43,485 nucleotides of DNA from NCBI RefSeq assembly GCF_017982655.1, contig NZ_JABXYX010000064.1, positions 1 to 43,485 on the forward strand. The letters are read 5' to 3'. Numbering within the stretch: the first letter of the stretch is position 1; each line of letters starts with the position of its first letter. The position numbers were made by a program, and so were the translations under genes. The notes under the pieces were generated by a model. That model saw only the letters and a program-made list of their open reading frames with translations. It was not told where the DNA came from and searched no databases. Shown here piece after piece: positions 3,842 to 29,861 of the stretch. This DNA comes from Brasilonema sp. CT11 (GTDB taxonomy: Bacteria > Cyanobacteriota > Cyanobacteriia > Cyanobacteriales > Nostocaceae).

Positions 3842-4321
3842 ATGGTTCAGTACACTCTTGCTCAAAGTCCAGAAATTATCCTCACCGTTGCTGGTAAAGA
3901 TTCAGCCAAAGCTCGCGACAAAGCGATGGATCAGTTAATGAAACTGATGGATGAAGGGAAATTACCTACGGAACTGGAAGATGGATTTGGTCCCAAACAA
4001 CTGATTGAAGTCAAAGAAACACCAACAGATACTGCTGGGGATGAAGACGCTATTACACAGGCTGTCCAAGTTTTGAGCAACTTAGCCACGCTCAAGTTGA
4101 AAGTGCAGGAGTCACGCACTGAAGCTATGGAAGTTCGTAAGGCGGTTGACGTTTTATTTTCGGATAATGCTGTGACTGAGGAGGAAATTACTCGCCTAAA
4201 AGAAGGTTTTAAAATTCTCAAAAATTATGCTCAAGCTAATCTGCGTTATCAAGAAGCAAGAGCAAAAGCAGAACAAGCCCGACAAGTTCTAGATGAGGCT
4301 TTGAAATCTCCTGAGAAATAG
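3842..4321 (+). CDS. Conserved cyanobacterial helical protein of unknown function
   Basis: 159 residues from the ATG at 3842; the frame is open further 5' to a TTG at 3812, but that extension does not look like coding sequence. The N-terminal ~60 residues are mixed (SPEIILTVAGKDSAKARDKA), the middle is acidic, and residues ~75-155 are strongly helical and coiled-coil-like (KLKVQESRTEAMEVRKAV, then RYQEARAKAEQARQVLDEA). No signal peptide, membrane helix or catalytic motif is visible. I do not recognise a named family. Divergent from the membrane protein at 2292-3584, with which it shares a ~257-base upstream region. Confidence 0.65.
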   Translation: MVQYTLAQSPEIILTVAGKDSAKARDKAMDQLMKLMDEGKLPTELEDGFGPKQLIEVKETPTDTAGDEDAITQAVQVLSNLATLKLKVQESRTEAMEVRKAVDVLFSDNAVTEEEITRLKEGFKILKNYAQANLRYQEARAKAEQARQVLDEALKSPEK

Positions 4322-4400
4322 TTGAGTCTTGACTGAAGTTGATTCAAAATATAGCCGTTATTCCTAAGAATCACGGCTCACTTCGGCTGCGTATGAGACG

Positions 4401-5447
4401 TCACTTTGTGACAAAATTTGACTTGCTACTGAACTCAGGGCTGACTGTTTTTTGTCTGCGTTTGAGCATTGCTGCTGCACTCAAAGCAGCAAGCGGTAAT
4501 ACAGCTAATGCTGTGGAGGATTCAGGAACGGACTTAGCCCTAATTCCCGCCAGCACTGCTTCTGCTACGATCTTATGAGCATTTGTAGTGGGATGAACCT
4601 CATCAAAAAACAAATAATCATTAGGATTATTACAGTTTTTCAATACTTGGTTGCTTCTAATGTCATACACTACACAAGAAGTGTTGACATCTTTGAATCC
4701 AAATTCTCCTGGATTGGCGATTATCCTATTAAACCCAGAATAAATATCAACAGGAATGATGTTAACACTAGGGTTGTTGTTACTTAATTGAAGTAACGCT
4801 GACGCCAACGCTGCATTGTGAGCATTCGTTAAAGTCGTTAAATTGCTGGAATTTCCTGTTCTCAGTGCAATTGGAGTCTTGCCTAAATCTGGCAAGTTAA
4901 AGACCAAAATATTTTTGGCACCAGCTTGGGTTAGTTCTCCAATCGCATTTGATAAATTACTAACTGTTTGATTAACATTAGGATTCTGACCAAACAAGTA
5001 ATCATTTCCACCTCCCCATACAGCATAGAGTGCATTTGGATCTGCCTTTTTGTTGTTTGCTAAAAAGGTGTCAACTTGCTTGAGGACTCCTGGTACGCCT
5101 GGAACGAAAGCATTGTCTTGACCAGAGAGAGAACCTCCAAAGGCAAAATTAATACCTTGAGTTGGTATTTGAGTACTTAGATTAGCAAATAATGTAGGAG
5201 TTAATCCGATATCTTGTCCAAGATAGTCCACCCAAATCTTATTATTGGAAAACCGTCCTTGAAAGTAGGGTGGATCTGGGGGAATCGGACCTGTAGGTGA
5301 GTTTTGCCCAGAAACAGTGAAGACATTACCAGTATCTGACAGGCTGTCACCAAATACGTTAAATTGACTAAAACCTGCAGCCGAAGCTTTTAGCGGTAAA
5401 CTCAAAGATAAAAAGACAAATCCAGCAGTTACGAGTTCTTTTTTCAT
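4401..5447 (-). CDS. Secreted SGNH/GDSL-type esterase with PEP-CTERM sorting tail
   Basis: 348 residues from the ATG at 5447, chosen over the ATG at 5474 because it starts directly with a signal peptide (MKKELVTAGFVFLSLSLPLK...ASA). The GDSL blocks are clear: VFGDSLSDTGNVF (nucleophile Ser), GGNDYLFGQ (block III with the oxyanion Asn) and FFDEVHPTTNAH (catalytic Asp and His). The C-terminus carries VPESSTALAVLPLAALSAAA followed by MLKRRQK, a PEP-CTERM signal (Pro-Glu-x, hydrophobic helix, basic cluster) recognised by exosortase for surface processing. Unusually, ~16 residues follow the basic cluster. Likely an extracellular lipase/esterase; substrate unknown. No exosortase gene lies in this window. 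Confidence 0.9.
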   Translation of the reverse strand: MKKELVTAGFVFLSLSLPLKASAAGFSQFNVFGDSLSDTGNVFTVSGQNSPTGPIPPDPPYFQGRFSNNKIWVDYLGQDIGLTPTLFANLSTQIPTQGINFAFGGSLSGQDNAFVPGVPGVLKQVDTFLANNKKADPNALYAVWGGGNDYLFGQNPNVNQTVSNLSNAIGELTQAGAKNILVFNLPDLGKTPIALRTGNSSNLTTLTNAHNAALASALLQLSNNNPSVNIIPVDIYSGFNRIIANPGEFGFKDVNTSCVVYDIRSNQVLKNCNNPNDYLFFDEVHPTTNAHKIVAEAVLAGIRAKSVPESSTALAVLPLAALSAAAMLKRRQKTVSPEFSSKSNFVTK

Positions 5448-5804
5448 GCCGACTCTACCCCTTGTATTCCTCATAAACTATTAAGCTTTATGATATTAAT
5501 ATAGCTTTTGTTGAACTCTAACTTTGTGTGTATTTATTAAAAAAAATTCTTTAACTAGATTTTATTTAAATGTTTTGGTGCTCAATGCACGAAGCCTTAA
5601 TTCTAAAGCTATGATAGACAATTACTATTATCTAACTTCACCAGTTCTTTATAGTTACCAGGAATTAAGTCAAGAAACTTTAACTCATCCCACAGCTTCA
5701 AGCGGTGGAATTTCCAGTCATTAGTTTTTAGTACATTTTTACGGTATGAGCGTTTTTAACAGTACTAAAAACTAATGACTGTTACTTGTAAGTGCTTAAG
5801 TAGA
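5448..5804. other. Gene-free stretch upstream of the GDSL gene
   Basis: AT-rich, with no supported coding sequence; an ORF at 5524-5724 (+) has no motif and an unlikely composition. It contains the perfect 20-bp inverted repeat listed at 5715-5781. The promoter for the minus-strand GDSL gene should lie in 5450-5550. Confidence 0.4.
5715..5781. repeat. Perfect 20-bp inverted repeat with 27-bp spacer
   Basis: Left arm 5715-5734 (CAGTCATTAGTTTTTAGTAC) is the exact reverse complement of 5762-5781. The outer halves contain the ATTAGTCAT-type words common in cyanobacterial short repeats. No T-run follows on either strand, so a simple terminator is less likely than a small mobile or palindromic element. 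Confidence 0.85.
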
Positions 5805-5984
5805 TTATCCTAGCTTTTGTTCTTGTCTAGTGTTAACGATATTCCAAATTTCATCCCAGCGATCGCCAATCAAATTTCTCAGTTTTTCGACATAAGTATC
5901 ACTGAGAGAACCCGTCATCTTATTCTTTAGTCTTCTGGAATGAAATACATACCTACGAGGAATGCCTAAGTTGATGAAAATCAT
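5805..5984 (-). CDS. Possible small protein, unrecognised
   Basis: 59 residues from the ATG at 5984 (an in-frame TTG lies at 6002). The sequence is basic in the first half (PRRYVFHSRRLKNKMTG) and then amphipathic (LRNLIGDRWDEIWNIVNT), with an in-frame HIP1 octamer in the second half. No known domain and only a weak ribosome binding site, so it may be a chance ORF or the remnant of a longer gene. Confidence 0.3.
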   Translation of the reverse strand: MIFINLGIPRRYVFHSRRLKNKMTGSLSDTYVEKLRNLIGDRWDEIWNIVNTRQEQKLG

Positions 5985-6002
5985 ACCTAACTTAAAATCC
6001 AA

Positions 6003-6538
6003 TCATATAATTATCGAAATATTTTATCAATAATTTTGAGAGTCTGAAATTTAAGAAAAGCGCATCGAGTATAAATTTTAAGTATTTATACTTAAAATTT
6101 TAGCAAATTGACCGCTTCAACCTTTATATATATAGTGTTTCAGAAATTAATCTGTAAACTCACCAGCAGTTTGTTCTAAATATTTTTTACCAAAATCATA
6201 AAAATCTAACAGATTTACTGGAAAAGAGTGCTAACATACTTGCAATATAGACTCAATAAGCTAGCATACGAACAATTAATACCAAATCATTAAGTCGCAC
6301 CAAAGCGTAAGGTCGGTTAGTTTGTCTTGCTTAATATTTTCACTATTCTCATTGGTGTAAAAAATATCTTTTACGTAAGAGTTTTTCACTCTGATCCCTA
6401 TCGTTGGAAGTCATTAGCTGCGGGTTATGAAAAGGGTATAGGGATGTAAAAAAGTAGGAGATTTATTGGCTTTACACTCTTACACCCATTCCCCGAAGCG
6501 GGCTTGGTCATTGTTTGCAATATTTTTGAGGATGAATA
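6003..6538. other. Gene-free stretch, AT-rich
   Basis: No coding sequence supported. It holds a perfect 13-bp AT-rich palindrome at 6073-6100 and a CCCCGAAGCGGGC mini-hairpin at ~6490. The last bases provide the GAGGA ribosome binding site for the gene at 6539. Confidence 0.4.
6073..6100. repeat. Perfect 13-bp AT-rich palindrome with 2-bp centre
   Basis: 6073-6085 (AAATTTTAAGTAT) is the exact reverse complement of 6088-6100. The centre is only two bases, so it could act as an operator or a cruciform-prone site rather than a normal RNA hairpin. It lies ~440 bp before the next gene. Confidence 0.7.
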
Positions 6539-6829
6539 ATGCTAGCTATATTTTTTATCTGCCTCTGGGTTTCAATGTTGATCGGATTTGCTTGTAGTGT
6601 TGTCCTAGCTTTCAAACAAGGCGCTGCTCAAGTAAAAAGAATGCATCAAATTCCTTGCCACCGCTGTGATTTCTTTACGAATGATCACCGCCTTAAGTGT
6701 ACGGTAAACCCTATGATTGCTTGGTCGGAAGAAGCGATAACTTGTCGAGATTTTGAACCAAAAACCGCTAACTCTAATGCTGCTCGCAAATGCCAACGAA
6801 AGAAATGTGATGGCATTTCACTCAATTAG
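6539..6829 (+). CDS. Small membrane-anchored Cys-rich protein, cyanobacterial
   Basis: 96 residues. The N-terminal membrane helix (residues 1-27, LAIFFICLWVSMLIGFACSVVLAF) is followed by a cysteine-containing domain: CHRCDFF, then KCTVNP, then CRDFEP. These cysteines could bind a metal or form disulfides, a pattern seen in a small cyanobacterial family without a named function. The start is supported by GAGGA 7 bases upstream of the ATG. It precedes the antenna cluster on the same strand but is separated by ~400 bp, so co-transcription is doubtful. Confidence 0.7.
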   Translation: MLAIFFICLWVSMLIGFACSVVLAFKQGAAQVKRMHQIPCHRCDFFTNDHRLKCTVNPMIAWSEEAITCRDFEPKTANSNAARKCQRKKCDGISLN

Positions 6830-7235
6830 TGGCTCTTGCCAGGTTTTGGTGATGATTTTAGCAAGGTCTTTAAGGTAAAGGGCAGAAGAAGGATGGTGAC
6901 GCATTGTCTAATCGCAAAGCTTAAGAGCGTTTTGCACCCAAAAAATCTAGATTAAGTAACAAAATCCAAATTAATGTAACGAAATTTTGAGTTTAGATTG
7001 TGCAAATCCTCTCAACCTGCATAATAAAATTTATCGCGATAAAATCTCATTAGATAATTTTATTTTCTTGATGTCTGATATCTAAATACTTGATGTCTGA
7101 TATCTAAATATCTGGGAGAAAGCGAGTGACACCAGTGAGAACACACGATCCTTTAAGAGACGGAACCAGTTAGAAAAAGCAACGGTTGGTCATTCCAATC
7201 GGCTGTTTTTGATGCTCATCAAAAAGGAATACTGC
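6830..7235 (+). promoter_or_regulatory. Upstream region of the isiA-type antenna cluster
   Basis: A 406-base gap without a gene. It contains a 14-bp palindrome TTTATCGCGATAAA (7030-7043), an AT-rich stretch with a partial Fur-box-like word (TTAGATAATTTTATTTT, 7050-7066), and the tandem 22-bp repeat listed separately. The AAGGA at 7224-7228 is the ribosome binding site of the ATG at 7236. IsiA-family genes are generally induced by iron limitation through Fur, so a regulatory region here is expected; the exact sites are inference. Confidence 0.5.
7067..7110 (+). promoter_or_regulatory. Two perfect tandem copies of a 22-bp sequence
   Basis: 7067-7088 and 7089-7110 are identical and contiguous (each copy contains TTGATGTCTGATATCTAAATA). 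They lie 126 bp before the ATG of the first antenna gene. Head-to-tail repeats with a period of about two helical turns are a typical layout for dimeric activators such as response regulators. No known cyanobacterial box matches exactly. Confidence 0.6.
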
Positions 7236-8324
7236 ATGACCGTTTCAATTTTTTGGAAGCCTGTGTTTCGTACTCTGGGCTGGTCTTCTGATGAAAAAGC
7301 CGAGGGGGAATCGGGCGCACCGCTATTAGCTGGTAACGCTCGGTTTATTAATCTTTCTGGGCGATTATTGGGGGCACATGTCGCCCATGCTGGGCTAATT
7401 GTGTTGTGGGCAGGTGCGATGACTCTGTTTGAGATTTCGCGCTTTGACCCGGCTATTCCCATGTACGAGCAGGGTTTGATTCTACTACCACATCTTGCAA
7501 CGCTGGGTTTTGGGGTGGGTGAGGGCGGTCAAATCGTGGATATTTATCCCTACTACGTTATTGGAATGCTGCACCTTATCAGTTCAGCCGTTTTAGGTGC
7601 AGGGGGAATTTATCATGCCGTATTAGGACCGCAAGTACTGGATGAGAAAGGGTTTGGCTATAACTGGCAAAACGGCAATAAGATGACCAGTATATTAGGA
7701 ATTCATCTCATCATGCTGGGTCTTGGAGCATTGCTGCTGGTCTTGAAAGCCACGCGTTTTGGAGGAATATATGACCCCATAACAGAGCAGGTACGCCTGA
7801 TTCAGCCTAATTTAGACCCAACTCGAATCTTTGGCTATTTATTTGGGTTCAGTCCAAATGGCTGGACGATAACTGGCATGGCTAGCGTGGATAATTTAGA
7901 AGATGTGATTGGGGGACATGTATGGGTTACCGTTCTTTGCATAGCTGGCGGAATCTTTCACATTGTCTCACAGCCTCTTGATTGGGCGAAACGAGCTTTG
8001 GTGTGGTCGGGTGAAGCTTATCTTTCCTATAGTTTAGGAGCTTTAGCGATCGCCGGTTTTAGTGTTGCTTGTTTTGTCTCAGTAAACGAGATTGCCTACC
8101 CGAGCGTATTTTATGGACCTATCAATGGCGGAACTGTGTCAGTACGTGCAGCTTTGTCGAGCGTTCATGCTGCCTTCGGATTTCTCGCATTAGTCGGTCA
8201 TATCTGGCACGCTTATCGAGCACGTAAAGCAGCCCGTGGTATTTACTTCAATACTTTCTTTGACTTCATCGCCAAGGATGTAAGACCTGCTGTTATGGCA
8301 AGTGTTGTCAATCCGACTGCTTGA
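7236..8324 (+). CDS. isiA: IsiA/CP43'-family chlorophyll-binding antenna protein (paralogue 1)
   Basis: 362 residues from the ATG at 7236, preferred over the TTG at 7209 because AAGGA sits 7 bases upstream. It has six transmembrane helices and the family's His chlorophyll ligands in their usual settings: [54 protein letters not shown] and GHIWHAYRA. The large lumenal loop between helices V and VI of true CP43 (PsbC) is missing, which marks IsiA/Pcb proteins. IsiA forms chlorophyll antenna rings around photosystem I, mainly under iron stress. It has a distinctive ~40-residue N-terminus ([20 protein letters not shown]). First of four same-strand antenna genes, but separated from the next by 468 bp. 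Confidence 0.9.
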
Positions 8325-8417
8325 GTTGGGAGTCTATAAATTTCAATTCACTTCATGACCTCATTCAAACAGTGAACGGTTAACAGTTAACAGGGGAAGC
8401 GATTTCTTGACCCGCCT

Positions 8418-8449
8418 GATAACTGGTAACTGATAACTGATAACTGATA
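8418..8449 (+). repeat. Short tandem repeats of TAACTGA type
   Basis: Head-to-tail units of TAACTGA, three in perfect register with one variant unit (TAACTGG). Heptanucleotide tandem repeats of this kind (STRR) are widespread in filamentous cyanobacteria and mostly intergenic. Confidence 0.75.
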
Positions 8450-8544
8450 TTGTGGTCGGTCTCATATGCGTATGGCAAATCCTTTGGTGCTATGCGGGAA
8501 GTAGCGAGTGAATTTCATGTCCGGACTTATAAAACACGAAGAAC

Positions 8545-8589
8545 CTCACCCGCCTACCACACTCTTTCCTTATCAAGGAGAGAGTTAGG
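8545..8589. repeat. Imperfect palindrome, CTCACCC...GGGTGA type
   Basis: Outer ends CTCACCC and AGGGTGA flank a stem ACTCTTTCCTT (8561-8571) / AAGGAGAGAGT (8575-8585) with one G:T pair and a 3-base loop. It probably belongs to a dispersed palindromic family rather than being a terminator, since no T-run follows on the plus strand. Confidence 0.6.
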
Positions 8590-8792
8590 GTGAAGTAACG
8601 CAGAAATTATAAGTCATTCGGCTGACTTGATATATAGCAGGGAACTCTTAACTCTTAACAGGCGTGTGAAAATCTCGTGGTGTCAGTGTTTTTTCATGAG
8701 TTCATGTCCTACTGGCAACTGCTATAAGTCCTAACTTCTTTGCTCAAAACTCAGCACGACAAAATTAAATTTTTCAAGGAGCAATTCGACGA

Positions 8793-9845
8793 ATGACTGC
8801 AACAACTGCAACAACTGTAACCACAAATGGAAGAACCGAGGAGATTCCCTGGAGAGCGGGGAATGCCCGTTTAGTTAACCTTTCGGGACAATTACTCGGT
8901 GCTCATGTTGCCCATGCGGGGTTGATTGTACTCTGGGCAGGAGCGATGACGCTATTTGAAGTTGCTAATTTCGACGTAACACGCCCAATGTATGAGCAGG
9001 GTTTGATTCTACTGCCAAACTTGGCTCGCTTAGGGCTAGGTGTTGGTGAAGGTGGTCAAATTGTAGATACCTACCCGTACTTTGTAGTTGGTGTGATTCA
9101 TTTGATCAGCTCTGCGTTTTTGGGAGCGGGTGGACTTTTCCATACCTTCGTTGGCCCCAAACAGCTAGAAACAAAATTTCCAAGTTTTGGCTATAGATGG
9201 GATGATGCCAACAAAATGACAAGTATTCTTGGCATTCATTTGATGCTGTTGGGGATAGGTGCATTCTTGTTAGTGGCGAAAGCAATGGCTTTTGGGGGAA
9301 TTTACGACCCACTCATTAAAAGCGTTCGCTTGATTACAAACCCGACTCTAGATCCAGGAGTTATTTTTGGCTATTTATTCGGTACGCATGGCAAGCTTTG
9401 GTTAGCGAGTGTCAATAACCTGGAGGATGTGATCGGTGGTCATATTTGGGTAGGTGCCATGTGTGTGCTGGGTGGATTGTGGCATATTCGCACTCAACCA
9501 TTCCCATGGGCAAAGAACTTATTTGTCTGGTCCGGTGAAGCCTATTTATCCTACAGCATTGGAGCCGTAAGCTTGATGGCATTTGTGGCAACGCTGTTTG
9601 TATCAGTGAATACAATAGTATTCCCAACAGAGTTTTATGGACCGACTTTAACATTGATATTTGATCGCTTCCCCCTCTTTGCTAGTACAGATGGAGCATT
9701 AACTAGTCGAGTCTGGCTAGCGAATGCTCATTTTTGGTTGGGCTTCTTCTTTTTGCAAGGACATCTGTTCCATGCACTGCGGGCTGCAGGTTACAGCTTC
9801 ACAGAAGGTAAAGTCATCACATCCACACGCGGACAGGTGAAATAA
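8793..9845 (+). CDS. isiA: IsiA/CP43'-family chlorophyll-binding antenna protein (paralogue 2)
   Basis: 350 residues, six predicted membrane helices. It carries the same ligand blocks as its neighbours ([57 protein letters not shown]) and lacks the CP43 lumenal loop. It differs from paralogue 1 by a short polar, Thr-rich N-terminus and a 10-residue Lys/Arg-containing C-terminus. The start is backed by AAGGAG about 10 bases upstream. The stop (TAA, 9843-9845) is one base from the next ATG, so it is almost certainly co-transcribed and translationally coupled with the IsiA::PsaL fusion. Which of the three copies is orthologous to classical IsiA cannot be decided by eye. Confidence 0.9.
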
Positions 9846-9846
9846 T

Positions 9847-11412
9847 ATGACATCAACAAATGTAAGTCCTTTGAAACCCCTTGGGTTTTCTGACGATCCA
9901 ACAGTTGCGATCAACTACGTCGCCCAGTCTCAAGACCCCTATTCTTGGTGGGCTGGAAACCTCCGCTTTGTCAATCTTTCAGGTAAACTCCTGGGTGCCC
10001 ACGTTGCACACGCTGGATTGATTGTGCTGTGGGCAGGTGGAATGACCTTGTTTGAACTGTCCCGTTTCGATCCAAGTATACCTATGTACCAACAGGGGTT
10101 AATTTTGTTACCCCATCTCGCAACATTAGGTTTGGGTGTTGGTGCGGGCGGTCAAATTGTCGATACTTATCCCTATTTTGTAGTTGGGATTTTGCATTTG
10201 ATTAGTTCTGCTGTGTTAGGAGCAGGTGGTATTTACCATGCGGTGCTAGGTCCAGATAAGTTAGATGAGAAGGGTTTTGGTTACCGTTGGGAAGATGGTA
10301 ACAAAATGACGACGATTCTCGGTATCCATTTAGTATTGCTCGGTCTGGGAGCGCTGTTATTAGTTGCCAAAGCTGTGTTGTTTGGTGGATTGTACGATGC
10401 AGTCGCTCAGCAAGTCCGGCTCATTTCTCATCCAACCTTGAATCCAGCGGTGATTTTTGGCTATTTAGTTGGCTTTAGTCGTGATGGCTGGACACTCAAG
10501 GGAATGGCTAGTGTTAATAACCTAGAAGATGTGGTTGGTGGTCATATCTGGATTGGAACAATCTGTATCTTGGGCGGAATCTGGCATATCAACACCGCAC
10601 CAAAAGAATGGACGAAAGGGTTATTTGTTTGGTCGGGTGAAGCATATTTATCCTATAGTCAAGCGGCTCTTGCTTATATGGGATTCTTTGCTGCCTTTTT
10701 TGTTTGGGTAAATGACACCGTTTATCCAAGTGTGTTTTATGGTCCGGTTGGAACGACAACTGTAGACGGGATTATCACTCCCCGTACCTGGTTGATGTTG
10801 TTCCATATTATCTTTGCAAGCTTATTGCTAGCGGGACATTTTTGGCACGCTCTGAGAGCAAGAGCGATCGCTGCTGGGTTTGTATTCAGCGAGATGAAAT
10901 TTGATGCCGATGCTTTGTTTGGGGATATTCAATTTAGCGATCGCGCCGTGTTTGAAGGGATTGTACAGCCCTACAAAGGCGACTTTTATTTAGGAAACTT
11001 GGCTACTCCCGTCAACAACAGCAGTGTCAGCCTCGGTTGGCTCAAAAATTTACCTATTTACCGTGATGGGTTGTCACCAATTACACGCGGGTTAGAAATT
11101 GGTATGGCGCACGGTTATTTCTTGCTGGGTCCGTTCTTGAAACTTGGTCCCCTGCGCGATACAGAAATTGCACTTCCAGCCGGATTAGCCTCTGCATCCG
11201 GGTTAGTGGTGATTTTAAGTCTTTGCCTGTATTCTTACGGTCTTTCTGTGTTTGGCAAAAGACAAAAACCCGTTGGGGTTTTACCTGAGAACCTCCAAAG
11301 CAAAAGGGGTTGGAGCTTCTTTTCTTCTGGCTTTCTCGTTGGTGGGATCGGAGGTGTGATTTTTGCTGGCTTCATCCTACTTGAAGTTGCACGAGCAGGT
11401 ATTGGCTCGTAA
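9847..11412 (+). CDS. IsiA::PsaL fusion (CP43'-like antenna joined to a PSI subunit XI domain)
   Basis: 521 residues. Residues ~30-345 are a complete IsiA-type six-helix antenna ([53 protein letters not shown]). Residues ~365-521 are a PsaL domain: [59 protein letters not shown], then two further helices. PsaL sits at the centre of the PSI trimer and normally is a ~150-residue separate protein. Such fusions are known in some cyanobacteria (to my recollection called IsiA4-type in a far-red strain). The fusion could place a CP43'-like antenna at the PSI oligomer interface or replace PsaL; this is inference. The ORF is continuous with no frameshift. Confidence 0.93.
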
Positions 11413-11585
11413 GTAATGGGTATTGGGTGTTGGGTGATGGACTATAACTTCCGAAGCAGCAAAATATTACCGATTTTAAAACCGCACCAGGCGCTCCAGA
11501 ACGCAGAGAAAATACGCAACGCTTTGGCAGAGGTAATTTTAGAGCACCGAAGAGAGTCATTCCCAATTCCCAATCCCCAATCCAA
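11412..11585. repeat. Short-repeat segment between the fusion gene and cpcL
   Basis: It begins with GTAATGGGTATTGGGTGTTGGG and ends with the roughly complementary TCCCAATTCCCAATCCCC, so the ~130 bases between are flanked by degenerate GGGTATT/AATCCCC repeats. This resembles the TTGGG/CCCAA intergenic repeats common in filamentous cyanobacteria. No T-run terminator is apparent, leaving read-through into cpcL possible. Confidence 0.5.
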
Positions 11586-11619
11586 TTAAAAAATTCATTA
11601 ATTAACAAAGATTTCAACC

Positions 11620-12333
11620 ATGACTATTTCCCTTCTGAGTTATCCATTATCGAGCCAGAATCAACGTGTAAATGGTTATGAAATTCCGGGTGATGAACAA
11701 CCTAGGGTATATACTACGGATAATTTGCCCAAAGGTACGGAAGTAGATGAAATTATCCGGGCAGCATATCGACAAATTTTCAATGAGCAACAACAAATTG
11801 CAAGCCATCGCCAAATCGCTTTGGAATCTCAACTTCACGCCAGTCAAATTACTGTGCGAGACTTTATTCGAGGGTTAGTTTTATCTGATTCTTTCCGTCG
11901 GTTGAACTACGAGACAAACAATAACTACCGCTTTGTTGAAATGTGCATTCAGCGTTTGTTGGGACGGAATGTGTATGACAACCGTGAAAAATTAGCTTGG
12001 TCAATTGTTTTAGCAACTAAGGGACTGCGGGGTTTTATTGATGAGTTATTAAACAGCGAAGAATATCTAAACAACTTTGGGTTTTCCACCGTTCCTTACC
12101 AACGACGACGAATTTTACCGCAGCGATCGCAAGGCGAACTTCCCTTTGCCCGTATGGCACGCTACGATGATAACTATCTGAAGCAAATGCGAAAAATTGG
12201 TCAACTGCGACCTTTTTATTATGGCGTCGCAGATAAAAGTGCTTCTGTTTATCGAAAGGTGATATTTGCAGTTCCAATTCTTGCACTTGCCATGTTATTT
12301 TTGACGTTGATAGCTGTTGCGACTCCTAAGTAA
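11620..12333 (+). CDS. cpcL: CpcL: membrane-anchored phycobilisome rod linker (PSI-type CpcG)
   Basis: 237 residues. Residues ~10-180 form a phycobilisome linker domain (EVDEIIRAAYRQIFNEQQQI, TVRDFIRGLVLSDSFRR, RFVEMCIQRLLGRNVYDNRE, GLRGFIDELLNSEEYLNNFG), followed by YQRRRILPQRSQGELPF. The C-terminus is a single hydrophobic helix (~212-235, VIFAVPILALAMLFLTLIAV). Rod-core linkers (CpcG1) end in a soluble segment; the hydrophobic C-terminal helix defines CpcL/CpcG2, which attaches rod-only phycobilisomes to the thylakoid membrane and passes energy to photosystem I. The position behind three IsiA-type genes supports a PSI-antenna role. No clear ribosome binding site. Confidence 0.92.
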   Translation: MTISLLSYPLSSQNQRVNGYEIPGDEQPRVYTTDNLPKGTEVDEIIRAAYRQIFNEQQQIASHRQIALESQLHASQITVRDFIRGLVLSDSFRRLNYETNNNYRFVEMCIQRLLGRNVYDNREKLAWSIVLATKGLRGFIDELLNSEEYLNNFGFSTVPYQRRRILPQRSQGELPFARMARYDDNYLKQMRKIGQLRPFYYGVADKSASVYRKVIFAVPILALAMLFLTLIAVATPK

Positions 12334-12370
12334 CTCATTCCCAGTTATGAAACTATTCTCCATACGAATT

Positions 12371-12480
12371 CTATTTGATTTGTGTTGGCGCAGCCTGCGC
12401 GTAAGCGCATAAGTCGCGTATACTCAGATTCCCGATTTCTTTTAGAAGTCGGAAATCTTGTTGTTTCTAAATAATTGGAG
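12371..12480. repeat. Dispersed ~110-bp element, copy A
   Basis: It starts CTATTTGATTTGTGT, contains GCCTGCGCGTAAGCGCATAA and a hairpin AGATTCCCGATTTC/GAAGTCGGAAATCT, and ends TTTCTAAATAATTGGAG. The same order of blocks recurs at 30851-30963, so this is a mobile or repetitive unit of MITE-like size. It lies between convergent cpcL and mrr genes. Confidence 0.6.
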
Positions 12481-12601
12481 TTTAGACTAAACAATGTAAA
12501 ACGACCCAGCACCGCTCTCGTTAAGAAAAGACCTGCTGGAAGCATGAACAATCTTTGATATTAGATGGCAACATTTGTATGTTCCTAATGAGCTAGTATA
12601 C

Positions 12602-13507
12602 CTATTTATCAAGCAACTCAAAAAAATCAGTGTCGATGTTTTTAACCTCATATTGGTACGACATACTAACACCTAGATTTAACCTAAACATTAAATTCAC
12701 CAGTTCTTGACCGTTAATTAAAACAACTTTCTCGTTTCTCTTGCTCAGATAGGTGTAAATAGAACTAGTAAAATCGCTAGTTGTAATGAATAAACCCTTA
12801 TCATTGTTGTTTATGGAGGCAATAAAGTGCTTAATTTCTGAGAGTTGAACATTGTTTTCTTTATACCTCTTAGCTTGGATATATATTTTCTCAAATCCTA
12901 GCGTGTCTCCTTTAACTACTCCATCTATCCCTCCATCTTTTGAGTATTGAGTTACTTCACCGACTCCATAACCTAGCTTTTCCAGTAGTTTGATGACAAG
13001 AAACTCAAATTTGCGTGGTTCAATTTCTTTTAAAGTAGATAAAATTTCGTTTTTAGTATTTATTTCTAATTTTTGAATTTCTGTTTCAATTCTCTGCTCT
13101 GGCGGTACATCACTTATTACAAGATTATCTACAACTAAAGTGTCAACATCAGATTTAGCATTAACTTTCCAAAAGTTTTGGGCTTTGAGTTCGGGATAAC
13201 TACTTAGAATAAATTTTTTGTCTATAAATGTCGTTTTCTTTAAAACCTCCTTACCTCTCTGAGTGATGGTGTAGTTACCTCTTGACTCTCTATTGAGAAA
13301 TTCAGCGTTAAATAAGTAAGTATTAGCCCAGTAAAGATTGTTGATGAACTGGGACTGGCCTGATTTTATTTTGACATTTACAATATCCTCAGAAAGTTTT
13401 AGTTTTTGGATAATTTGAGAGCTAAATTCTTTGTAGTTGTGAGTTTTATCATCGTTGTACAAACTGAGGAGCGGATACATCAGTTCATCGTACTTTGGAA
13501 TCGTCAT
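12602..13507 (-). CDS. Mrr-type restriction endonuclease (PD-(D/E)XK)
   Basis: 301 residues from the ATG at 13507; the frame extends 5' with low-quality codons to 13576. The N-terminal ~95 residues match the Mrr N-terminal winged-helix region (KYDELMYPLLSLYND, WANTYLFNAEFLNRESRGNY, ITQRGKEVL). The C-terminal ~110 residues are the nuclease domain: FEFLVIKLLEKLGYGVGEV, SKDGGIDGVVKG (catalytic Asp) and IYIQAKRY (QxK motif), then SEIKHFIASI. Mrr enzymes cut methylated or foreign DNA, so a defence role is likely. No methyltransferase is adjacent, consistent with a type IV (modification-dependent) enzyme. The region is AT-rich compared with neighbours. Confidence 0.85.
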   Translation of the reverse strand: MTIPKYDELMYPLLSLYNDDKTHNYKEFSSQIIQKLKLSEDIVNVKIKSGQSQFINNLYWANTYLFNAEFLNRESRGNYTITQRGKEVLKKTTFIDKKFILSSYPELKAQNFWKVNAKSDVDTLVVDNLVISDVPPEQRIETEIQKLEINTKNEILSTLKEIEPRKFEFLVIKLLEKLGYGVGEVTQYSKDGGIDGVVKGDTLGFEKIYIQAKRYKENNVQLSEIKHFIASINNNDKGLFITTSDFTSSIYTYLSKRNEKVVLINGQELVNLMFRLNLGVSMSYQYEVKNIDTDFFELLDK

Positions 13508-13757
13508 ATACTTGATGTTCAACAGGAAAATACAAAAATTATTAAATAGAAACAAACTACACTCACCACCAACCAATCATCTTTACTAAAATCCCTATTT
13601 GTACTTCCTGGTACAGTAATTGCAGCAAGCACTCCATCGAGATTTCAAGCACCAATTACAGCAATTTTTAGGTATTTAAAATGAGAAAAATCTTGTAGAG
13701 ACGTTGCCGGCAGCGTCTCTACAAACTATCAAAATTAATGAGACAAATCACTACGTA

Positions 13758-18742: not shown

Positions 18743-19627
18743 TTAATACAGGACGGAGGGTAGAAAGGCCCCAGCCGGTTCGTTATACAGGCCGAGGCTC
18801 ATCAACGTCGCGGTCTGCCTGACACGCAGATCACGGTTCAAACACCAACGGAACAGGTCGGCGTTGCGCATCGGAAGCAGAAAGCCCGACTCAGTGAACG
18901 CTGGAGCTGCGCCGATCAGCGCCTTTAAGTCCTCATTGTTCTCGCCAACAGCGTGACCGAAGAAGCTAATTTCGCTGGCGTAGCCCGATACACGCCCATT
19001 ACGCTCGACAAGCGTTGCCGTGCCCCGCCCGACAGCTCCCTTTAGTTCGCTCGCTCGGTCATGACCATGAATGCGATAGCAGAGTTGATTACACGCAGCA
19101 AGATCGGCTTCAGTTACCGGACGAACAGTGTGGCCGGGTATTGTCAAGCCGAGAGGCTGTCCTTGAAGGTTCGCCAGTGGCTCGCGCGGATCAAAACCAA
19201 GTTTTGTATACAGGGAAAGCGAGCGGCTGTGATACCCAGCTTGAACGAGCCGCACACCGGCGAACCGTTTTTCGTGTGCCCGCTGTAAAACATGTTCCAT
19301 CAGGCGGCGACCAAGCGACCTGTTTTGCGCGCCAGGATCTACGGTAATGGGGCCGATCCCGGCGATAGTGTCGCCTTCCCACAAAAAGTTGCTACCGATG
19401 ACGCGCCCATCCTCACCCTCAGCCACCACCGAATAAACCGCCGGATCAGCTAAAATTTCGGTCAACATAGCCGCCGCCAACTCCGCAGAAGGAAAGTCGG
19501 GTACGAAGCCGTGCTGTTCTGCAATCACACGGAACCCTTGATACACAATGGTGCCACAGGCGAGTGCGTCCTCGGGTCGTCCCGCACGCAGCATCCCCGA
19601 AGATGTTTGTTCAAATACTTTGTCCAT
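18743..19627 (-). CDS. Tandem GNAT-family N-acetyltransferase
   Basis: 294 residues with two GNAT domains. The first (~12-150) has PITVDPGAQNRSLGRRLMEH (acetyl-CoA pyrophosphate loop, here QNRSLG) and SRSLSLYTKLGFDP; the second (~165-290) starts TVRPVTEADLAACNQLC and is weaker. Substrate unknown. Composition is unlike its surroundings: in 18781-18840 I count 35 G+C of 60 (58%), while 18481-18540 just outside has 17 of 60. Rare HIP1 content and its position between repeats R2 and R3 suggest acquisition by transfer. It runs opposite to vWA and tetR. Confidence 0.85.
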   Translation of the reverse strand: MDKVFEQTSSGMLRAGRPEDALACGTIVYQGFRVIAEQHGFVPDFPSAELAAAMLTEILADPAVYSVVAEGEDGRVIGSNFLWEGDTIAGIGPITVDPGAQNRSLGRRLMEHVLQRAHEKRFAGVRLVQAGYHSRSLSLYTKLGFDPREPLANLQGQPLGLTIPGHTVRPVTEADLAACNQLCYRIHGHDRASELKGAVGRGTATLVERNGRVSGYASEISFFGHAVGENNEDLKALIGAAPAFTESGFLLPMRNADLFRWCLNRDLRVRQTATLMSLGLYNEPAGAFLPSVLY

Positions 19628-29492: not shown

Positions 29493-29861
29493 TTAAGAAC
29501 CGCCAGAGTTCTGGGGGTCTTGGCTGCAGGTAGATCGTTGGTAAATGGGGGAGCGATATCCAAAAATTTTCTCTCGAATTTGTTTAAAGATAAAATCAGC
29601 TTTCATGGTGTTCCCGACTAAGCAGGACACATAACAAACAACTAAAACAAGGCTGGCTTTGTCGTGGCTACGACTGCGTAACCAGTTTCCCATATAGCGC
29701 ACATACAGAGGAAGATAACTGAGGTTTTGCCAAATTCCTGGGAACAACAACAGCAAATGTGCAATCATAGTATTTGGCGGAAATGGGCCTAAATATTGAG
29801 TCAAGTGTCTTTTTAGAACAAAGCCAGCCTGAGCCTGTTGATTCGACGAACGTTGGCACAT
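29493..29861 (-). CDS. Doubtful ORF downstream of ftsE
   Basis: 122 residues from ATG 29861. It starts MCQRSSNQQAQAGFVL, vaguely like a prepilin leader, and has a hydrophobic stretch (HLLLLFPGIWQNLSYLPLYV) and another (ASLVLVVCYVSCLVGNTM). No family recognised, and the neighbouring frame is also open (29668-30021), which makes coding less certain. It could be a decayed gene. Confidence 0.3.
   Translation of the reverse strand: MCQRSSNQQAQAGFVLKRHLTQYLGPFPPNTMIAHLLLLFPGIWQNLSYLPLYVRYMGNWLRSRSHDKASLVLVVCYVSCLVGNTMKADFIFKQIREKIFGYRSPIYQRSTCSQDPQNSGGS

Follow-up and report, generated by a model that had tools for sequence, protein, structure and literature searches.

The four-gene block

The window analyzed here comprises positions 1–43,485 of contig NZ_JABXYX010000064.1 of the cyanobacterium Brasilonema sp. 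CT11 (assembly of 8.8 Mb in 411 contigs, 96% complete). It carries, at positions 7236–12333 of the plus strand, a block of four genes: three isiA-type genes, the third of which is fused to psaL, followed by cpcL (Table 1). All four reading frames are intact, and a single base pair (9846) separates the second gene from the third. An alternative start of the first gene, the upstream TTG at 7209, would yield a product of 371 amino acids (aa).

All three IsiA-type proteins match the PF00421 domain in Pfam searches (E-values of 8e-74, 2e-72 and 3e-75, in gene order). In a profile search of the genome, the products of the first and third genes skip PF00421 positions from about 273 to 445, that is, the large lumenal loop of CP43 is absent, and the match of the second protein is confined to profile positions 3–272. 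CP43-like proteins that lack this loop make up the IsiA family, and all three belong to it. The conserved histidines of IsiA are chlorophyll ligands; when defined as alignment columns with histidine in at least three of six rows, these are retained in 11, 10 and 11 of 11 columns in the first, second and third protein, respectively. In the fusion, the IsiA domain (residues 1 to about 350) is followed by an interdomain linker and an in-frame PsaL domain (PF02605, residues 373–512, E = 3e-54), whereas the fourth protein contains the PF00427 domain (E = 6e-46). The first-pass annotation of this DNA had described the block as a dedicated photosystem I (PSI) antenna cluster on one strand. That assignment and the gene identities are right, and the intact frames, the 1-bp gap, the histidine blocks, the complete PsaL domain and the C-terminal helix of CpcL that it pointed out are all confirmed.

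Table 1 Features of the cassette and its surroundings (window coordinates)
Feature	Position	Strand	Basis or content
isiA2-like gene, position 1	7236-8324	+	PF00421; 362 aa from ATG 7236
isiA3-like gene, position 2	8793-9845	+	PF00421; 350 aa
isiA4-like fusion, position 3	9847-11412	+	PF00421 and PF02605; 521 aa
cpcL (cpcG2 in published clusters)	11620-12333	+	PF00427 and C-terminal membrane helix; 237 aa
Stretch without counterpart in G408 and G404	5448-13756 (8.3 kb)	none	flanked by GDSL-lipase and M16-peptidase genes
22-bp tandem repeat, two perfect copies, in the leader ahead of the first isiA gene	7067-7110	+	repeat search
Dispersed repeat copy in the gap between positions 1 and 2	8630-8725	+	35 matches listed in this genome
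Terminator-like hairpin, about 100 bp after cpcL	12432-12452	+	pattern scan
Mrr-type restriction gene	12602-13576	-	PF04471, PF14338
Companion open reading frame, 96 aa	6539-6829	+	N-terminal hydrophobic helix and four-Cys motif

Distribution and common ancestry of the cassette

The fusion protein has matches at E-values up to 1e-30 in 183 of 386 genomes of the phylum, psbC being counted as well. We retrieved 38 higher-scoring loci through similarity to the fusion, and 34 of these hold one; cpcL lies near the fusion in two (G320 and G123; 3 of 35 with the window included) and is missing from the stretch covered in the other 32, one of which, L071, extends just 0.4 kb downstream. The synteny search for cpcL next to isiA::psaL that had been proposed in the first-pass annotation was also performed: when named genomes were searched with the CpcL of the cassette, isiA::psaL adjoined cpcL in 22 of the best 80 of 525 confirmed loci. 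The combination, in which the annotation had placed the novelty, is accordingly not new, and the same four-gene order has been published (PMC12090762). The bearers include Leptolyngbya PCC 6406, Vasconcelosia, Nodosilinea, Okeania, Trichodesmium, Hydrocoleum, Oscillatoria CS-180, Richelia, Calothrix rhizosoleniae and B. angustatum; Leptolyngbya JSC-1 is absent from the loci retrieved. Two loci (L187 and L192) have broken frames. In a third, L204 from Okeania hirsuta, the fusion is doubled: a 924-aa frame at 4316–7090 encodes most of an IsiA::PsaL followed by a near-identical second IsiA::PsaL, either a genuine doubling or an assembly artefact.

Quick phylogenetic trees, with support from the Shimodaira–Hasegawa-like approximate likelihood ratio test (SH-aLRT) only, were constructed for the fusions, the IsiA domains and the linkers. 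In the tree of 58 fusions (which omits L192, with its broken frames, as well as L193 and L199, the same records as L120 and L119), a single branch with support 100 splits the 24 fusions with a neighbouring cpcL from the 34 without one. Since most of the cassette loci used for the trees were gathered by CpcL similarity, the rule that cassette fusions have cpcL holds partly by selection. Grouping the three Brasilonema fusions with a Nostocaceae-type clade of 10 rows is rejected by the approximately unbiased test (p-AU = 1e-44); an earlier version (p-AU = 1.5e-52) used 13 Nostocaceae fusions that are not one clade and was redone with the 10 monophyletic rows. In the tree of 82 IsiA domains, cassette positions 1, 2 and 3 each form one clade of 16 rows, the window included, with support of 100, 99 and 99, so that each isiA-type gene of the cassette groups with the same-position gene of the Trichodesmium and Leptolyngbya cassettes. 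Likewise, in the tree of 105 CpcL-type linkers, the 26 cassette CpcL form one clade with two lone ones (support 99). These trees show the cassette to be inherited as a single block in Leptolyngbya, Okeania, Trichodesmium, Richelia, Calothrix and Brasilonema relatives.

In the tree of IsiA domains, the position-1 IsiA is the sister of the IsiA domain of the cassette fusion (support 90), with the other fusions outside. The position-1 protein may derive from a fusion by loss of the PsaL part.

Insertion of the cassette and decay of the native operon

We compared seven genomes of Brasilonema-like cyanobacteria, that of the window (G000) among them. The cassette is present in G000, G405 and G403; G404 and G406 have a Nostocaceae-type fusion elsewhere, and G407 and G408 have no fusion. 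In G408 and G404, the lipase–peptidase interval that in the window accommodates the cassette measures 498 and 478 bp, respectively; in G406, the lipase gene is diverged and, together with about 235 bp resembling window positions 5452–5683, leads straight into the peptidase gene. The two flanks are thus directly joined in three non-carriers, whereas G407 is uninformative because its flanks sit on different contigs. The left-flank DNA tree unites the three carriers (support 100/100). Nothing in the G408 junction matches the insertion significantly. A match of about 100 bp (E = 3e-23) between the G404 junction and the gap separating the first two isiA genes was considered as a potential remnant of the cassette and rejected, being a dispersed repeat.

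The genome of the window has two further isiA genes, both on contig C254, which we label isiA1- and isiA5-type by gene order and length. They are preceded, at C254 positions 29556–29838 (L185 9557–9839), by a remnant of the native isiA3, namely residues 8–100 in two frames. Similar isiA3 pieces are found in G405 and G403, and G408 retains an isiA3 piece along with the C-terminal 34 residues of the native fusion. Because only broken pieces remain in the carriers and in G408, the native isiA3–isiA::psaL pair has decayed, also in this non-carrier, and the cassette lies elsewhere.

The only CpcL found in the genome

CpcL carries a C-terminal membrane anchor. We examined all 13 PF00427 stretches of the genome, which belong to 10 proteins, one being ApcE, and found that the cassette CpcL is the sole linker with a hydrophobic C-terminus and a predicted membrane helix. 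The best 19-residue hydropathy within its last 60 residues is 2.81, compared with –0.16 to 0.44 for the other linker frames. In the AlphaFold model (21 rows; mean predicted local distance difference test score, pLDDT, 70; predicted template modelling score 0.55), the helical PF00427 domain is apparent, and the C-terminal helix spans residues 206–234, with pLDDT of 80–87 at 211–230 and lower values toward both ends. The top three Foldseek hits of this model comprise rod-core linkers and the CpcL of structure 8hfq (TM-scores near 0.6), phmmer also matches the cassette linker to the 8hfq CpcL among many phycobilisome linkers, and NCBIfam returns only CpcG1–4 models, all below their cut-offs.

At E-values up to 1e-40, the cassette CpcL is accompanied by one helix-less linker in both G403 and G405; this linker is the only match in G404, G406 and G407, and in G408 it occurs together with a different CpcL. 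The absence of a second CpcL is firmest for G405 because this assembly consists of three contigs and is 99% complete, compared with 96% for the window assembly and 89% for G404. By analogy with the characterized proteins, the cassette CpcL is predicted to bind rods to PSI. If the cassette is iron-regulated as it is in Trichodesmium, CpcL-docked phycobilisomes would be confined to iron starvation, since no other CpcL is found in the assembly, so that phycobilisome docking on PSI may exist only under this condition in this lineage.

The helix-less linker (about 250 aa, with a C-terminal VPYRRR in this genus; for example, L023 709–1461) forms a clade of its own, with 21 rows. In many Calothrix-type loci (L213, L217, L220 and others), it directly follows cpcL.

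Candidate control signals

Co-regulation of the cassette genes is established elsewhere, in Trichodesmium, and would be expected here by analogy. The gap between the fusion and cpcL is 207 bp in the window and ranges from 33 to 1541 bp in 20 other cassettes; this spacing neither proves nor excludes one transcript. A scan for terminators found no plus-strand terminator-like site in 8325–8792 or 11413–11619; it yielded 10 sites compared with 7.6 (standard deviation 3.0) in shuffled sequences, and the promoter scan gave 10 sites against 14.7 expected, so neither set of sites was relied on. FurA-like 10-mers such as TTATTGATAA and TTCTCAATAA each occur in 4 of 17 regions upstream of cassettes (five near-copies dropped), compared with a maximum of 2–3 in 20 shuffles; they were not seen in the upstream stretch of the window that was examined. 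The Rfam model of IsrR (RF01419) matches all three isiA genes as well as the two on C254 and psbC. Because psbC has the highest score (161 bits), these matches reflect coding homology and were rejected as evidence for an antisense RNA. The 22-bp tandem repeat ahead of the first isiA gene is also present in G405 and, in an altered form, in G403.

Origin and role of the cassette

The explanation that best accounts for these observations, and one that we consider likely, is that the block belongs to the published isiA2-isiA3-isiA4::psaL-cpcG2 type of low-iron PSI antenna cassette and was acquired as a unit by an ancestor of three Brasilonema-like species, whose native isiA3–isiA::psaL operon decayed meanwhile. 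The genes and their domains, the predicted membrane helix, the common ancestry, the insertion, the native remnant and the lack of any other CpcL in the assembly are observed here; the gain by transfer we infer from sequence comparison. Judging from the homologues, the cassette genes would be switched on when iron falls. The PsaL-like domain of the fusion would then take the PsaL site of the PSI core, keeping that PSI monomeric, and the IsiA domain would hold one end of an array formed by the remaining IsiA proteins, those of the cassette and the two encoded on C254. CpcL, held by its C-terminal helix, would dock rod-type phycobilisomes on PSI.

Several observations weigh against this scenario. 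The GC content of the cassette (44.1%, compared with 42.3% for the window) gives no signal of transfer, and the right-flank tree fails to join all three carriers, leaving G405 unplaced. No mobile-element genes were found in the insertion, where the open reading frames (ORFs) of at least 100 aa are the four cassette genes and the Mrr gene only (smaller ORFs were not scanned), and the border repeats amount to short, not interpretable hairpins (5715–5781 and 13693–13724). No Fur box is demonstrated for the window: the best upstream match to the Anabaena FurA consensus covers 14 of 19 positions (p = 0.13), and although 6 of 22 cassettes have a match to this consensus at p < 0.05, the control psbC also reaches 0.047. 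With the Escherichia coli Fur consensus, the window gives p = 0.98, and 2 of 22 cassettes are at 0.05 or less. Finally, three of the four residues stressed in the paper on the Anabaena homologue (W426, N451 and W454; PMC9938196) differ in the present fusion.

The ordinary GC content and the behaviour of G405 in the right-flank tree would also fit a history of old paralogues and differential loss, in which the common ancestor possessed the cassette as well as the Nostocaceae-type operon and each descendant lineage retained one of the two. The presence of the cassette in two other members of the family Nostocaceae, Richelia UBA3308 (L119/L199) and Calothrix rhizosoleniae (L120/L193), points in the same direction. 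We nevertheless regard this history as unlikely: it requires clean loss at the same junction, where G408 has no significant match and the one match of G404 is the dispersed repeat; cpcL is missing from 32 of the 34 fusion loci retrieved via the fusion, in the stretch covered; and the cassette fusions and the others fall on two sides of one supported branch. It is similarly improbable that cpcL is a mere neighbour, expressed separately, with CpcL-phycobilisomes unrelated to IsiA-PSI particles. The widely varying distance between the fusion and cpcL, the smaller response of cpcG2 to iron in Trichodesmium (30-fold, compared with over 300-fold for isiA2–isiA4; PMC12090762), and the 2 of 28 CpcL of the cassette clade that have no isiA in the stretch covered are compatible with such independence. 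Against this, the other 26 CpcL lie beside isiA::psaL, albeit mostly gathered by CpcL similarity and including some near-copies, the Trichodesmium genes all respond in the same direction, and no plus-strand terminator-like site is listed between the fusion and cpcL.

Still less probable is a role of the fusion as a free chlorophyll or quenching protein, or as a PsaL competitor that forms no IsiA arrays. IsiA can indeed serve as an independent photoprotective pigment protein (PMC8545134), but the Anabaena homologue was observed in PSI at the PsaL site (PMC9938196), and IsiA2, IsiA3 and IsiA4 go with monomeric PSI, as PMC12090762 reports citing others. The first-pass proposal that the fusion sets the oligomeric state of PSI or anchors an IsiA array is already answered for the Anabaena homologue.

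Beyond the gain of a low-iron antenna cassette, we tentatively suggest, with somewhat less than even confidence, that the cassette is a transferable module: the Brasilonema lineage would have swapped its native operon for a foreign cassette and thereby gained a PSI-docking linker that is lacking in three of the four non-carrier congeners and is available in iron starvation only. Given that the "cpcG2" of these clusters is CpcL, phycobilisome docking on PSI may belong to the iron-starvation response. The genus offers a natural experiment, with three species carrying the cassette, two a Nostocaceae-type fusion and two neither. Their comparison under iron starvation would part the contributions of the fusion, the extra IsiA and CpcL to the size of the PSI antenna and to the oligomeric state of PSI.

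Companion ORF and other features of the window

The companion ORF lies between the lipase gene and the cassette in all three carriers. Its hydrophobic helix is followed by the motif HQIPCxxCxFFTNDxRLKCTVxPxxAxSEEAIxCxDFEPKT, and its family has four conserved cysteines (CxxC...C...C), one of which is lost in 1 of 16 rows. Members are present in 24 of 37 isiA loci (L057–L093) and, isiA-linked or elsewhere, in 113 of the 386 genomes; another one is encoded at L185 12579–12854. Searches of 16 members against Pfam gave no convincing match, and four members searched in NCBIfam gave none. The product is, by these sequence features, a small membrane protein of an undescribed family and a frequent neighbour of isiA clusters.

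The Mrr gene is located in the same stretch as the cassette and has no match at the loci of the two other carriers (L117 and L118); it is a separate insertion, outside the cassette. For the dispersed repeat, 26–41 matches are listed in each of five of the seven genomes compared, one in G407 and none in G406. Window positions 8616–8723 have no counterpart in L117, and the repeat is absent from the same gap of the carrier G405; its presence partly explains the long gap between positions 1 and 2 in the window. A minus-strand ORF at 18743–19627 has a third-position GC content of 57.6%, compared with 25–43% in the other ORFs of at least 200 aa.

Comparison with known systems

The four-gene combination and the role of the fusion are already known; what is added here is the block inheritance, the insertion site, the native remnant, the sole CpcL and the companion ORF. 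The last four are absent from the first-pass annotation and could not have been recognized without related genomes. We found no paper treating isiA in Brasilonema in the open-licence PubMed Central literature. In the same literature, a search on isiA, PsaL and horizontal gene transfer returned no title or abstract showing the cassette, and PMC12138183, obtained by a search on CpcL, iron, isiA, PSI and phycobilisome, is not concerned with it in the part excerpted.

The closest published system is the isiA2-isiA3-isiA4-cpcG2 cluster of Trichodesmium erythraeum IMS101 (Tery_2483–2486), in which IsiA4 bears the PsaL domain; at high iron, isiA2–isiA4 are over 300-fold lower and cpcG2 is 30-fold lower (PMC12090762). 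It consists of the same four genes in the same order, with PsaL on the third, and a Trichodesmium metagenome-assembled genome (L206) lies within the cassette clades for each of the three positions as well as for the complete fusion, although its fusion–cpcL gap is 1541 bp rather than 207 bp. The Trichodesmium linker is called rod-core linker cpcG2, and the name "CpcL" is absent from the main text of PMC12090762, whereas the protein of the window is predicted to be membrane-anchored.

The Trichodesmium cluster is described as bearing a striking similarity, in both sequence and synteny, to isiA2-isiA3-isiA4-cpcG2-isiA5 of Leptolyngbya sp. JSC-1, which is induced about 500 times under iron limitation (PMC12090762, citing Shen et al. 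2016) and was described by Shen, Gan and Bryant in 2016 (per PMC12090762, PMC12214013 and PMC9938196). The Brasilonema system shares with JSC-1 the gene order, the fusion and the number of isiA genes, five per genome (PMC9938196), here three in the cassette and two on C254. It differs in that isiA5 adjoins cpcG2 in JSC-1, whereas here the isiA5-type gene lies beside the isiA1-type gene on C254 and cpcL is followed by the minus-strand Mrr gene. The published Trichodesmium cluster likewise ends at cpcG2, so isiA5 is not required of the cassette family.

The linker itself resembles the CpcL of Synechocystis PCC 6803 (8hfq chain n), with which it shares PF00427 and, in the Foldseek alignment, 66% identity over 196 columns, the matched chain covering 197 residues. 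Unlike that protein, it sits in an isiA cassette, within a clade almost confined to cassettes. The top match of the fusion in the PDB is IsiA2 of Anabaena sp. PCC 7120 (7y3f chain 1), which also combines IsiA with a C-terminal PsaL-like domain; by cryo-electron microscopy, this domain occupies the PsaL position and blocks oligomerisation, so that PSI stays monomeric (PMC9938196). The Anabaena protein is shorter (476 aa, compared with 521 aa here), its aligned domains are about 3 residues apart rather than about 25, and Nostocaceae-type fusions of the Anabaena layout lie on the opposite side of the fusion tree, from which the Anabaena chain itself was left out.

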